Shown piece after piece: positions 8,084 to 61,718 of a stretch of DNA of 64,000 bases. The DNA is from Verrucomicrobiota bacterium (GTDB taxonomy: Bacteria > Verrucomicrobiota > Verrucomicrobiia > Limisphaerales > JACQFS01). The notes below the pieces were generated by a model that did not search any database, was not told the origin of the DNA, and saw only the letters and a list, made by a program, of their open reading frames with translations. The stretch covers positions 1 to 64,000 of the forward strand of contig JACQFS010000170.1 in the NCBI GenBank assembly GCA_016199935.1. The letters run 5' to 3'. Made by a program: the position numbers and the translations under genes. The first letter of the stretch is position 1. Each line of letters begins with the position of its first letter.

Positions 8084-8377
8084 GATCTGAACTCAAATCG
8101 TGGCTGGTCAGACTCAAGCGACGGTGATCTGAACCCAACCTGCCGCGGTCTGAACTCAAACTGCCGCGTTTCGAACTCAAACCGCGGCAAGTTGGATTCA
8201 AACTGTGACGATCTGAACTCAACCAGCCGCAAGTTGGATTCAAACTGCCGGAATCTGAACTCAAACTGCGGCGATTTGGACTCAGATCGCGGTGATTTGG
8301 ACCCAGATCGTGACGATTGGGACCCAGATTGCGACGATTTGGACCCAGATTGCGACGATTTGGACTCAGATCGCGAC
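8084..8377. repeat. 21-bp degenerate tandem repeat array A (14 units)
   Basis: 14 consecutive 21-mers without indels, e.g. gatctgaactcaaatcgtggc, ggtctgaactcaaactgccgc, gatttggactcagatcgcggt, gatttggacccagattgcgac; approximate consensus GATYTGRACYCARAYTGCGRC. Confidence 0.95.
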
Positions 8378-8507
8378 GATCAAAGTCTGAATTCCACGCA
8401 CTTTAGACCAGTTATCCACTTCCAAACACGATATTTACGTCGCTTTACGTCAGCTTCAGCCTGCCGCCCCACGTCCGGTGTCCAGCCAGAACCGGCGTTT
8501 CCCCGGG

Positions 8508-14711: not shown

Positions 14712-14754
14712 GGCGGGGTTTGTAATTCAGAACCGGCGCGGTGTCAGCAAGCCA

Positions 14755-14850
14755 GTGCCGCAGGCACGAAAGAAAATAGCCCCGGTTTTCAAGCCGGGGT
14801 TTGCAGCGGGAGAGTGCGAGTCCCGTCAGGGACGAGAGAAGGATGAACGA
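14755..14850. repeat. multi-hairpin intergenic element
   Basis: gtgccgcaggcacgaaag / gccccggttttcaagccggggtt / gtcccgtcagggacgagag: three successive stem-loops. Confidence 0.55.
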
Positions 14851-22342: not shown

Positions 22343-23329
22343 ATGAGTTCCGCGTTGGACCAACCCAGGACTGGGCGGGCCGTGAGCGGGTTCGTTCTCC
22401 TGATTACCTCAGAACGGGAGAATGGCCGCAAACTAACCGTCCGGCTTGCGCCCCCCATGATCGTGGGCCGCGCCCTCGAAGCGGACATCTCCCTCGCCGA
22501 TCATCTCACCTCCCGCCGCCATGCCCAGCTCAGCGTCCACGGCGACCAGGTCGTCATCGAGGACCTCGAATCCACCAACGGCACCTTCGTCAACAGCCAG
22601 AAAATCCGCCGTGCCGTCGTTCGTCCCGGTGACCGCATCCTCATCGGCGTCACCACCCTCGAACTTCAGACCCAGTCCCAGTCCATCACCCTCCCCTCCG
22701 GCCAGGCCGCGGCGCCCCGCGCCGGGGCCGCCCCCGCCCCCGTCCCCGGCAAGACCCTCGCCGTCACCACCATGGTGGACGCCGCCAAACTCATCAGCGG
22801 CTCCGTCAAGGAAATCCCCATCGCCGACCTCCTCCAGCTCCTCAACCACATGCGGAAAAGCGGCATCCTCATGATCCGCAACGCCAGCGACACCGGGAAA
22901 ATCTACCTGCGCGAGGGGCAGATCTGCGGTGCCACCATCAACGGCAGTTGCGCCGTCGAGCCGCGCCGCACCTTCTACCGCCTGCTCCGGTGGCAGAAGG
23001 GCTCCTTCGAGCTGCGCCCGGCCGAGGACGAGCCGTTGCGCGCCGACATTTCCGACGCCACCGATTCGCTGCTGCTCGAGGCCGCGTGGCAGCACGACGA
23101 ACTCATCCAGTTGGAATCGCAGCTCCCGCCCTTTGAATCCCTCCTCGCCCTGGCCAACCCGCTCCCCGGCCCCCTGCGCGACCTGACCCAGAGCGAGATG
23201 GACATCTGCCAGCTCGTGATGGAGCACCGCACCCTGCTGGGCGTGATTGACCACTTTCCCGGCACCGACTTCGAGGCCTACAAGGACCTCATCCGCCTCA
23301 TCCAGCGCAAATACGTGGTGGTGAGCTGA
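22343..23329 (+). CDS. FHA domain + DUF4388 (PATAN-like) protein
   Basis: IVGRALEADISLADHLTSRRHAQLSVHGDQVVIEDLESTNGTFVN; KEIPIADLLQLLNHMRKSGILMIRN...GKIYLREGQICGATING. Confidence 0.88.
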   Translation: MSSALDQPRTGRAVSGFVLLITSERENGRKLTVRLAPPMIVGRALEADISLADHLTSRRHAQLSVHGDQVVIEDLESTNGTFVNSQKIRRAVVRPGDRILIGVTTLELQTQSQSITLPSGQAAAPRAGAAPAPVPGKTLAVTTMVDAAKLISGSVKEIPIADLLQLLNHMRKSGILMIRNASDTGKIYLREGQICGATINGSCAVEPRRTFYRLLRWQKGSFELRPAEDEPLRADISDATDSLLLEAAWQHDELIQLESQLPPFESLLALANPLPGPLRDLTQSEMDICQLVMEHRTLLGVIDHFPGTDFEAYKDLIRLIQRKYVVVS

Positions 23330-23419
23330 GGCGTGCGGGCGGGGCGGACGGGGAAAAGGGGCGGCGGGCTTCCGTAAAACTCGAACGCGGTTTTGCTTCG
23401 GGGAAAAGTTTCCTGCTCG

Positions 23420-23476
23420 CGCTAACGATCCAAGCTGAGCGGCCGCGGAGCCGTTCGCGGCAGCGCATGGTCAGGG
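23420..23476 (-). other. attC-like recombination site 1 (integron cassette)
   Basis: minus strand CCCTGAC-CATGCGCTGCCGCGAAC...CTCAGCTTGGATC-GTTAGCG; shares arms with attC-like site 2; toxin stop codon lies in the R''-like end. Confidence 0.65.
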
Positions 23477-23830
23477 GACGGTTCGTTCACCAGCGGCTTC
23501 CTGAAGGTAGCTGGCTAGACGACGCAGCAAACGGGTGTGCCGCTCGGATGAGATGGAGCCGATGTCGCCCAAGAATTCATCGGCAGGTAACAGCGCGAGA
23601 AAACCCAGGCGGATGAGTGATGTGCTCGTCAAGCCGCTCGACGGAAAATCGGAGTCGGTCGGAGAAATAATCTCGTCGAAGTCGGCGACTTGGTGACGCA
23701 ACTGGCGGCTGATGCCGCAAATGAGCAGGTCGCCAAACGGACGCATCACCCGCAAAACGATTGCCGGTCGGTTCTTGGTCTTGCCGTCGGCCTGCTCGAA
23801 CGCGGTGAGCACTACATCGCCCTCTTTCAT
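23471..23830 (-). CDS. MazF/PemK-like toxin
   Basis: MKEGDVVLTAFEQADGKTKNRPAIVLRVMRPFGDLLICGISRQ pattern; overlaps antitoxin stop by 4 bp. Confidence 0.8.
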   Translation of the reverse strand: MKEGDVVLTAFEQADGKTKNRPAIVLRVMRPFGDLLICGISRQLRHQVADFDEIISPTDSDFPSSGLTSTSLIRLGFLALLPADEFLGDIGSISSERHTRLLRRLASYLQEAAGERTVP

Positions 23831-24057
23831 TTGGCGGCGGGCGTCCGCACCAGGCTCGCCGGATAATCTGGCTCGTCGTCCGAATACGCGCGCGCCAGAC
23901 CCGCTTTGGAGAGCGCATACCACTGCTGCCGCTCGGCGTCGGACAAGGTCTCGGGCAGAATCGTTACGAGCAGCCGGGCGTCGGCAGGTAGCACGAACGG
24001 CTCGTCGAGTTGGATGTGGTCGCCGTTGACGTGGGCGGTAAGAGTGACGGCCTTCAT
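23827..24057 (-). CDS. putative antitoxin partner of MazF-like toxin
   Basis: MKAVTLTAHVNGDHIQLDEPFVLPADARLLVTILPE; immediately upstream of and overlapping toxin. Confidence 0.7.
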   Translation of the reverse strand: MKAVTLTAHVNGDHIQLDEPFVLPADARLLVTILPETLSDAERQQWYALSKAGLARAYSDDEPDYPASLVRTPAAK

Positions 24058-24106
24058 GGGGGGCACTGTATTCGGTGGGCTCGTCGCGGGCAAGCACGTA
24101 AAGTCG

Positions 24107-24199
24107 GCCTAACGACCCAAGCTCAGCGACCCGGCACACGGGACGCAACGATTGCAACCGCGACGCTCCCGCCGGGTTCGCTGCAGCGCATGGTTAGGC
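24107..24199 (-). other. attC-like recombination site 2 (integron cassette)
   Basis: GCCTAAC...GTTAGGC core pair (RYYYAAC/GTTRRRY) enclosing palindromic arms CAGCGACCCGGC / GCCGGGTTCGCTGCAG with unpaired bases. Confidence 0.85.
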
Positions 24200-24217
24200 C
24201 ACGGTGTCGTCATAATC

Positions 24218-24388
24218 TCATCTCCCGTCTGAGCGCAATGCGATGAGCATCCCAATGGCAGATGCCAGCATCACAACTGCATAAACTGTCTGCTTCACAG
24301 AAAACTGAAGGTAGATAAGCCCCCAAATCTTCAGGACACCGAGAAGCCCGAACACTATCACGCCGAAGATCAAGAGTGCCTTCTTCAT
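24218..24388 (-). CDS. small membrane protein (56 aa), integron cassette gene
   Basis: MKKALLIFGVIVFGLLGVLKIWGLIYLQFSVKQTVYAVVMLASAIGMLIALRSDGR, two hydrophobic helices; ends 18 bp before the attC-like site. Confidence 0.65.
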   Translation of the reverse strand: MKKALLIFGVIVFGLLGVLKIWGLIYLQFSVKQTVYAVVMLASAIGMLIALRSDGR

Positions 24389-24406
24389 GTCAAAGCGGGT
24401 CGAGTG

Positions 24407-24413
24407 GTCTAAC
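24407..24413 (-). other. GTTRRRY core-site match upstream of first cassette gene
   Basis: minus strand GTTAGAC 18 bp before ATG of the 56-aa ORF; no second arm found. Confidence 0.4.
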
Positions 24414-24847
24414 AGGTATTCGACCGCATTTTGCAGTCTAGCAAAGTGGGGGCTGGGGCGGTCATGCCGGCAGTTTATTGACGAAACAGGCCGTGTCGAG
24501 CAGGATTCCCGCTTCCCGGCATGACTCAGGGCGAAAATATTGAACCGACAAAAACCGCACCGTTTGAACGGATGATTCCGAATCCGAAGGCGCGCTTGCA
24601 GGATCAGTTGCACGCCGCAGGCAGGTAGGGACTCAGCCGCCGGCTGGTCCCCGTCGCCGAGCGCAGCGTCAGGCGACGGAATCCCCGGGCTCGCGGTCGC
24701 GCCCCCGGCCTCCGTTCCGCCCGCTGCACGCGGCCGGGGACCACCCGGCGGGTCGTCCTTACCTGCCCGTTCCCTCGCCGAAAAGTGTCCCAACGGGACA
24801 TTCTGTCGTAAATCCCTCATTGCAAGCGGCTTAACATGTTAATCACG

Positions 24848-25120
24848 CGCCTTTTCCCTCCTCGGAAGCGTCGTTTCCCTCCTCGGGAACGACGTTCCCG
24901 TCCACGGAGACCACGTTTCCGACCACGGGAACGACGTTTCCGAGGAGGAATGCGTCGTTTCCACGCCGGGAGTCGGCGGCTCCTTGGAGGGGCGCGCCGC
25001 TTCCCTGCGGAGCAGCGAGGCGTCCCTGCATGGAAACCGGGCTTGTCTGCGGGGTGGTCGCGTCACCTTGGAGGGAAGAGGCGCGACTGCGGAGGGTGAC
25101 GCAGCGTTCGTGGTGGGAGG
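24848..25120. repeat. 21-bp degenerate tandem repeat array B (~13 units)
   Basis: consecutive 21-mers cgtcgtttccctcctcgggaa, cgacgttcccgtccacggaga, ccacgtttccgaccacgggaa, cgacgtttccgaggaggaatg, cgtcgtttccacgccgggagt ... Confidence 0.9.
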
Positions 25121-25541: not shown

Positions 25542-26249
25542 ATGCAACTGTTTTACGACTCCGCGACGCCCGTTTTCTACGACGCGCCCACGAGCCATTA
25601 CGACAGCGGTGCCGCGGAGCCGATCCTACGTAAAATGAAAAAAATAAAAGCTGACAGCCGCAACCTCCCCGTCCCGAACAAAGTCCTCAAGGGCCAGGAG
25701 GTCGCCGGCAAACTCGCGGCCAACGCGGCGCTCCCGCAAATGGCCGCCTTCTCCGCCACCCTCCTGACCGCCACGACGCTGATGGACAACGACTACAAGG
25801 CGGCCGTCGCCGCCGCCGACACCGCCAAGCAGCTCTTCAACGCCGCGCGCGTCTCCGAGTCGGCGTGGGACACGCTCTACGTGCAGGGCGCGGCGGACGT
25901 GAACAAATTCGGCACCACCGAGGCCGTCCGCCTCAGCAGCGGCTACCCGCTCGAATCCGACCGCACGCCCATCGGCCCGCTGCCCGCCCCGGCGAACTTC
26001 ACCGTCACCTTCGGCGACATGCCGGGCACGCTCTCCTTCACCATGGACCCGGTGAAGGGCGCCAAGACGTATCTGATCGAGCTCGCCACGGCGGCCACCG
26101 GCCCCTTCACGCAGGTGCTGGTCAGCACGTCGTCCGACGGCGTGGTGCCGGGCCTGACGAGCGGCACGGTTTATTATCTGCGCGCCAAGGCCGTCGGCGC
26201 CGCGGGCACCGGCGCGGCGAGCGACATCGCCATGAAGATGGCACCCTAG
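25542..26249 (+). CDS. hypothetical protein with C-terminal fibronectin type III-like domain
   Basis: PAPANFTVTFGDMPGTLSFTMDPVKGAKTYLIELATAATGPFTQV...VPGLTSGTVYYLRAKAVGAAGTGAAS. Confidence 0.75.
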   Translation: MQLFYDSATPVFYDAPTSHYDSGAAEPILRKMKKIKADSRNLPVPNKVLKGQEVAGKLAANAALPQMAAFSATLLTATTLMDNDYKAAVAAADTAKQLFNAARVSESAWDTLYVQGAADVNKFGTTEAVRLSSGYPLESDRTPIGPLPAPANFTVTFGDMPGTLSFTMDPVKGAKTYLIELATAATGPFTQVLVSTSSDGVVPGLTSGTVYYLRAKAVGAAGTGAASDIAMKMAP

Positions 26250-26522
26250 AATCCGGGCGGACCCAGCGGCCGGCGAGAATCCTCCCGCCGTCACCGCCGT
26301 CCGCCCTCCAAGGAGGCGGGACGGGACACCACGGTGCCGTGAAACAAAACCCCGCCCCACCAAACAGACGGAGCGCGGCACGTTGGCCGCGACGGGACTT
26401 GGAGAGGTCTTATGAATCTCCAGCCGGTATGAAATGAAGACCCGTCGGGCGTCCGCGCCCGCGCTCCGTCCCCTGACGAAACACTTTCCGCCTTACCTCT
26501 TACCGCCCACCCCTTGCCGCCT

Positions 26523-26936
26523 ATGCCCTTCGATCCCACCAAGCCCGCGACCGACGCCCCGCTGCTCTCCGCCGAACTGCGCGCGCAGTTCAACGGCCTG
26601 CGCGACGACCTCCACGCCGAAATCACCACCATCCCGCAGGGCCCACCCGGCAACGACGGCGCGGACGGCCTTCCCGGCGACAAGGGAGACAAAGGCGACA
26701 AGGGCGATTCCGGTGACAAAGGGGACAAGGGCGACCCGGGGAACACTGGCGCGACCGGCGAGGTGACGACCGTGCAGTTGAACGAGGCGCTCAACACGGC
26801 CATCGCCGGCACGAGCAGCAACACGAACGCCGTGCCGACGCTGGACACGCCCTTCGTCAACGACCCGCCCACGCTCGCGGACATGGAACTGATGCGCGCG
26901 GCGTATAACGCGCTCGTGCTGGCGATGCGTCGGTAA
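26523..26936 (+). CDS. short collagen-like (Gly-X-Y) protein
   Basis: GPPGNDGADGLPGDKGDKGDKGDSGDKGDKGDPGNTGATG; termini similar to the 60821..61342 protein. Confidence 0.85.
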   Translation: MPFDPTKPATDAPLLSAELRAQFNGLRDDLHAEITTIPQGPPGNDGADGLPGDKGDKGDKGDSGDKGDKGDPGNTGATGEVTTVQLNEALNTAIAGTSSNTNAVPTLDTPFVNDPPTLADMELMRAAYNALVLAMRR

Positions 26937-27092
26937 GGTAGGGACAACCCGCCGGGTTGTCCCCGCCCGCGTTCAGCAGCGGGCGGAACGGAGGGCGGGG
27001 GCTCACGGTGCGTCCCAATTCCGTCGCCTGACGCTCCGCTCGGCGACGGGGACGAGCCGGCGGCTCGTCCTTACCTCGGCGCGAGGTTGCCG

Positions 27093-61382: not shown

Positions 61383-61718
61383 CGGTTTGGACAGGTTTCC
61401 ATCCGGTTCGAAAACATTTCTAATCGGTTTAAACACATTTCTTTTCTCGTCGGAAGGGTTTCCAAACGGTTTGGAAACCCTCCTTTTCGGTTTGGACACT
61501 TTTCCCACGGCTCGGAACACGTTTCCCATCGGTTTGGAAGGCTGCCTTTTTCATTTGGAAACCCTTTCCATCGGCTGGGAAGGCTGTCGGAAGCGTTTGG
61601 AAACTCTCCTTTTTCGTTTGGAAATCCTTCCAACCGGTTTGGACGCCTGCTTTTTGACTTCGGAACGCTGTCCAAAGTGTTTGGGCAGGCGCCCAAACGG
61701 CCGGAAGACCCTTTTCAG
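61383..61718. repeat. 21-bp degenerate tandem repeat array C (~16 units)
   Basis: consecutive 21-mers cggtttggacaggtttccatc, cggttcgaaaacatttctaat, cggtttaaacacatttctttt, ctcgtcggaagggtttccaaa, cggtttggaaaccctcctttt ... Confidence 0.93.

Follow-up and report, generated by a model that had tools for sequence, protein, structure and literature searches.

CALINs, in which attC sites occur without an intact integrase gene nearby, are as common as complete integrons, and their origin is mostly inferred. The locus described here lies in a verrucomicrobial genome of 5.03 Mb in 260 contigs and raises the question of what such a cluster was before: an integron that has lost its integrase, a unit copied around the genome, or a group of cassettes that never belonged to an integron. 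The window analyzed is a stretch of 64,000 nucleotides (positions 1-64000 of contig C5, of 65,581), and 146 genomes of the same order, which is most likely Limisphaerales (Verrucomicrobiota), served for comparison; genomes, contigs and loci are designated below by G, C and L numbers. A preliminary description had read the locus as an integrase-less, CALIN-like cassette cluster. Searches at the genus and family level returned this genome alone, so that there was no close relative in which an empty or intact version of the locus could be seen. No paper was found in the literature on the integrons of this order of Verrucomicrobiota, and according to PMC9024848 few good descriptions exist of attI sites other than those of class 1.

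The layout consists of a divergent intI stub, an attI with a promoter, and two same-direction cassettes that are each closed by an attC, the final attC being degenerate (Table 1).

Table 1. Features of the probable decayed integron, with positions in the window.
Feature	Position	Strand	Basis or remark
attC2, short and degenerate	23420-23476	-	shared arms, covariance model
Cassette 2, PemK/MazF-type toxin, 119 aa	23471-23830	-	PF02452
Cassette 2, antitoxin-like ORF, 76 aa	23827-24057	-	ATGA overlap with toxin ORF
attC1, intact	24107-24199	-	fold, covariance model
Cassette 1, membrane-protein-like ORF, 56 aa	24218-24388	-	ORF list
Recombination core GTTAGAC, attI/first cassette	24407-24413	-	direct reading; agrees with the attI cores of other arrays
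attI plus cassette promoter region, about 120 nt	24407-24525	-	model R2, 105.7 bits
Leader ORF of 18 codons, MTAPAPTLLDCKMRSNTC	24409-24465	-	TAG stop at positions 3-5 of attI core GTTAGAC
Putative cassette promoter Pc, TCGACA-16-TAAACT	24472-24499	-	consensus match only
intI fossil, MTQGENIEPTKTAPFERMIPNPKARLQDQLHAAGR, then stop	24521-24625	+	integron integrase N-terminus, divergent from cassettes
Inverted-repeat (MITE-like) element, about 150 nt	24620-24767		self-inverted match, 73%

The two sites that close the cassettes are both attC sites, of unequal quality. The full attC pattern that had been ascribed to attC1 is present: the site reads GCCTAAC...GTTAGGC, in agreement with the core consensus RYYYAAC/GTTRRRY, and has complementary arms and, on the folded strand, bulged bases; both strands of the site fold more favorably than shuffled sequence (z about -2.4). 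The second site, attC2, shares both arms with attC1 (87% over 30 nt in one arm); the sharing had been noted in the preliminary description. Its cores CCCTGAC and GTTAGCG depart from the RYYYAAC/GTTRRRY consensus and its own fold is no better than shuffles (z about -0.5), and for these reasons it is regarded as a degenerate attC. A first covariance model (R1), trained on eight sites, detected four more in this genome, which lie pairwise on contigs C127 and C193. Because both window sites were among its training sites, which made it circular, R1 was replaced for the test by a hold-out model (R3), built from 20 attC sites elsewhere with both window sites excluded. In the 64 kb window, R3 ranks attC1 first (112.9 bits, E 8e-27) and attC2 second (25.0 bits, E 3e-4) and thus puts both above noise, the third-ranked match reaching only 13.6 bits (E 0.24); scores below threshold for both sites, named in the preliminary description as a refuting outcome, are therefore not what is seen. 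An Rfam search gave no matching family for the region, and a match to the arm pattern on contig C159 proved to be coding sequence and not an attC.

A view of the sites as dispersed repeats that have nothing to do with cassettes, which the preliminary description itself had set against its reading, is scarcely credible. Similar sites do occur at several loci of the genome, but they lie in cassette arrays, one of which adjoins an intact intI, and the homology of cassettes ends at the cores. In the attC structure, the paired positions of both arms (R and L) and of the inner stem also covary: across the 20 sites, 9/21 pairs changed on both sides with pairing kept, compared to 2.8 in shuffles (0/500 as high). 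Furthermore, attC-type sites are found in 94/146 genomes of the order, clustered behind intI.

As first described, the three cassette genes are all on the minus strand and end at or adjoining an attC. The ORF of cassette 1 has no match in Pfam and NCBIfam searches. Cassette 2 is predicted to encode a type II toxin-antitoxin pair of the MazF/PemK type. The earlier naming of the toxin is borne out by a match to PF02452 at 28.1 bits (cut-off 23.1), while the antitoxin-like ORF matches no Pfam family and fits an antitoxin by its position and its ATGA overlap with the toxin ORF. The toxin stop codon had been placed within the R''-like end; it is the TGA inside the attC2 core CCCTGAC, and in the relative G080 the toxin gene is stopped by the TAA within GCCTAAC. 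Relatives of the toxin occur in 18/146 genomes of the order, and the closest proteins are found in two genomes of other families, G080 (89% identity) and G053 (87%), in which the antitoxin-like ORF has a DNA identity of 89 and 86%, respectively. In the DNA alignment of cassette 2 with both genomes, identity is about 82-90% in both genes; the homology begins at a GTTRGGC-like core and, immediately past the R'' core, drops to 49-53% in the body of attC2. In G080, the toxin is directly followed by an attC that belongs to the present family (43 bits). Homology from core to core is the signature expected of a moving cassette, and these alignments identify the toxin-antitoxin unit as such a mobile element. 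As attC2 is degenerate, the unit is probably locked in place at this locus, where the degenerate site and the addictive effect of the pair would both hold it.

The preliminary description had also seen a GTTRRRY match, GTTAGAC, ahead of the first cassette gene. This match is present, and it is the core of an attI followed outward by a promoter and the intI stub; these three elements had gone unnoticed, and the cluster is more than merely integrase-less. The putative Pc, which would transcribe the cassette array, is the sole promoter-like match in positions 23300-24800 (0.2 in shuffles). The attI stretch is common to contigs C236, C161 and C172 (over 105 bits each), with weaker matches on C247 (57.9 bits) and C159 (50.4 bits) and a match on C129 that covers the promoter part alone; the genome thus holds at least three more strong copies, all integrase-less. 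Elements of this type occur in 8/146 genomes of the order, and the majority of the copies have no adjoining intI. On contig C89 of G076, a homologous element (68.2 bits) adjoins an intact divergent intI and precedes two attCs, which is why the C5 element is identified as an attI. Out of 30 intI loci tested, this one alone carries the C5 attI type, the other attIs being diverse. CALINs can also arise when IntI inserts cassettes at an ordinary chromosomal attG-type site (discussed in PMC12444791), in which case the cluster would never have been an integron. This origin is highly improbable here, where the insertion site is an attI of about 120 nt with a promoter, homologous to an intI-adjacent attI and adjoining an intI stub.

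Some further elements of the attI type were observed. A hairpin (GACYGCA-NNN-TGCGGTC, 24409-24442) just before the attI crossover is well conserved among the orphan attI copies. At L116 (7525-7637; G044 C183), an intact intI has, besides the integron's own attI, an additional attI-like element on its downstream side, which points at the 3' end of the gene. The C5 attI type is also carried by L129 (CALQJI020000002.1), a record labeled Klebsiella pneumoniae, and by L128/L131 (RFVF01), labeled Proteobacteria, which suggests that these records are mislabeled MAGs.

The attI contains a short leader ORF that ends, in frame, at the core's TAG. ORF-11 in the attI1 of class 1 integrons is likewise a short attI ORF whose stop codon, TAG, occupies positions 3-5 of the core GTTRRRY, and it aids translation of the first cassette (PMC8876359). 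In the present family the length is 18 or 22 codons and the start lies about 6 nt after the predicted -10 box; the likeness to ORF-11 is one of arrangement, and sequence similarity is not claimed. An ATG or GTG is found exactly 18 codons before the core TAG on C5, C236 and C161, in both main copies of G076 and in L129; in three copies from G125 and G044 this distance is 22 codons. Among the intI-adjacent attIs of the order an in-frame start is present in 9/16, compared to 4 and 0 for the other frames; against shuffles the count is 9/15 vs. 3.7 (0/400 shuffles as high), one intI-adjacent attI, that of G076, having suggested the test. The presence of an in-frame start is significant, whereas the length of the open frame alone at intI-adjacent attIs is not (p 0.115). 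Protein-level conservation of the leader was considered and rejected: the frame is kept, but within the conserved part the majority of differences alter the encoded amino acid, and the conservation therefore looks like a constraint at the DNA level. By analogy, a device of the ORF-11 type is likely to operate at the C5 attI: ribosomes translating the leader would terminate at the TAG of the core and reinitiate at the gene of cassette 1, as is the case for ORF-11. Translation of the leader ORFs, if it occurs, would mean that this device is not peculiar to class 1 integrons.

The intI stub of about 35 codons is, from residue 1, 51% identical to the N-terminus of the intact G076 IntI. A blind genome-wide search with the latter protein returns C5:24533-24628 (E 1.5e-5), the intact gene on contig C237 (58%) and others that resemble Xer-type recombinases. 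A complete integron would have an intact intI adjoining attI; at C5 there is only the stub. The C5 attI is homologous to the G076 attI that has such a neighbor. The same pattern of decay is repeated at other loci, with intI stubs adjoining orphan attIs on C161 and C172, on C288 of G076 and in G036. The locus is therefore likely to be a decayed chromosomal integron from which the integrase has been lost, and CALINs have been described as degraded integrons in the literature (PMC9024848). The stub terminates where the inverted-repeat element starts, and copies of this element are found in the window at 26936-27076 (84%) and just upstream of the C172 orphan attI (87%). The remainder of intI was not found beyond the inverted repeat or adjoining other orphan attIs, which counts against decay.

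Two more observations count against decay and are shared by a different explanation. In this explanation, a unit of intI stub, Pc and attI spread within the genome by copying, through a mobile element or ectopic recombination, and gave rise to integrase-less satellite platforms at which a full intI was never present. The stubs are without exception short (about 9 to 38 codons), and those of C161 and C172 share their end point, which would not be favored by random decay of complete integrons that were separate from each other. Copying of a unit would also fit the presence of four or more strong copies within this genome and of MITE-like repeats adjoining C5 and C172. However, the stub lengths vary by locus (about 9, 35, 38, and 27 codons), the flanks differ, and a common outer boundary or target duplication was not found, and this explanation is considered unlikely. 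Decay of a complete integron remains the preferred reading.

The claim that the cluster is integrase-less holds for contig C5, on which searches of the genome with TIGR02249 and IntI found no intact integron integrase, but not for the genome. The genome search for IntI yielded a single intact gene, on contig C237, which encodes a 352-aa IntI (419 bits, cut-off 265) that matches the solved Vibrio IntI4 end to end. It adjoins an attI of its own, different type, which ends TACCTG/TTAGGC (slash, junction), and two cassettes. The last attC of C237 and that of C5 both end in GTTAGCG, from which we infer that both empty attIs would have read TACCTG/TTAGCG before capture; in this way the right core of attC2 matches the sequence to the right of the original attI. 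The C5 array can presumably no longer be changed by its own integrase, while the IntI of C237 may still recombine attC1 in trans, and trans mobilization of CALIN cassettes has been described (PMC12444791). As far as the cited account goes, a preference of integrases for their cognate attI has been reported (Collis et al., 2002, cited in PMC12901181), and service of the C5 attI by the C237 IntI is therefore not to be assumed, although it is possible. A more far-reaching model is a split integron, with one IntI locus and dispersed integrase-less attI-promoter platforms that would capture and shuffle cassettes in trans, the leader ORFs coupling translation to the newest cassette via the core stop; this model is speculative and probably incorrect.

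With two attC sites, same-direction cassettes and no intact intI on C5, the locus falls under the definition of a CALIN, and the preliminary description was right in this respect. Formally it is a CALIN with a retained attI, and it differs from other CALINs in keeping a recognizable attI, promoter and intI stub. It thereby keeps evidence of its origin. In its attI, Pc, cassette array, lineage-specific attC family and toxin-antitoxin cassette it resembles sedentary chromosomal integrons, in contrast to which its intI is reduced to about 35 codons. Decayed integrons of Xanthomonas, in which intI is truncated or absent and cassettes remain, with CALINs away from the intI locus (PMC12444791), are similar, but here several attI copies without intI are present in one genome. 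The attI and attC models permit the finding of orphan attIs in this order of Verrucomicrobiota.

Other features of the window and genome are listed for completeness. A repeat, CCTAACTGTTGATCCTCGACACGTTGTC, follows the last gene and begins in an R''-like core, and some copies continue into the right half of an attC. It occurs nine times in this genome (G000; contigs C109, C127, C159, C161, C18, C84, C197, C54, and C260; L132, L135, L137, and L139-L144), three times in G002 and once, weakly, in G029, and was considered as a candidate marker of the array end. Imperfect tandem repeats of about 21 nt are found in the window at 24853-24962, 8126-8380, and 61458-61634; such repeats lie near several arrays (e.g., L013 9500-9620 and L014 4860-5170), yet also elsewhere in the window. 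An Acido-Lenti-1 sRNA match (45.2 bits) is located at 14754-14799 on the minus strand, and a collagen-repeat ORF (PF01391) at 26514-26936 on the plus strand adjoins an uncharacterized ORF at 25542-26249.
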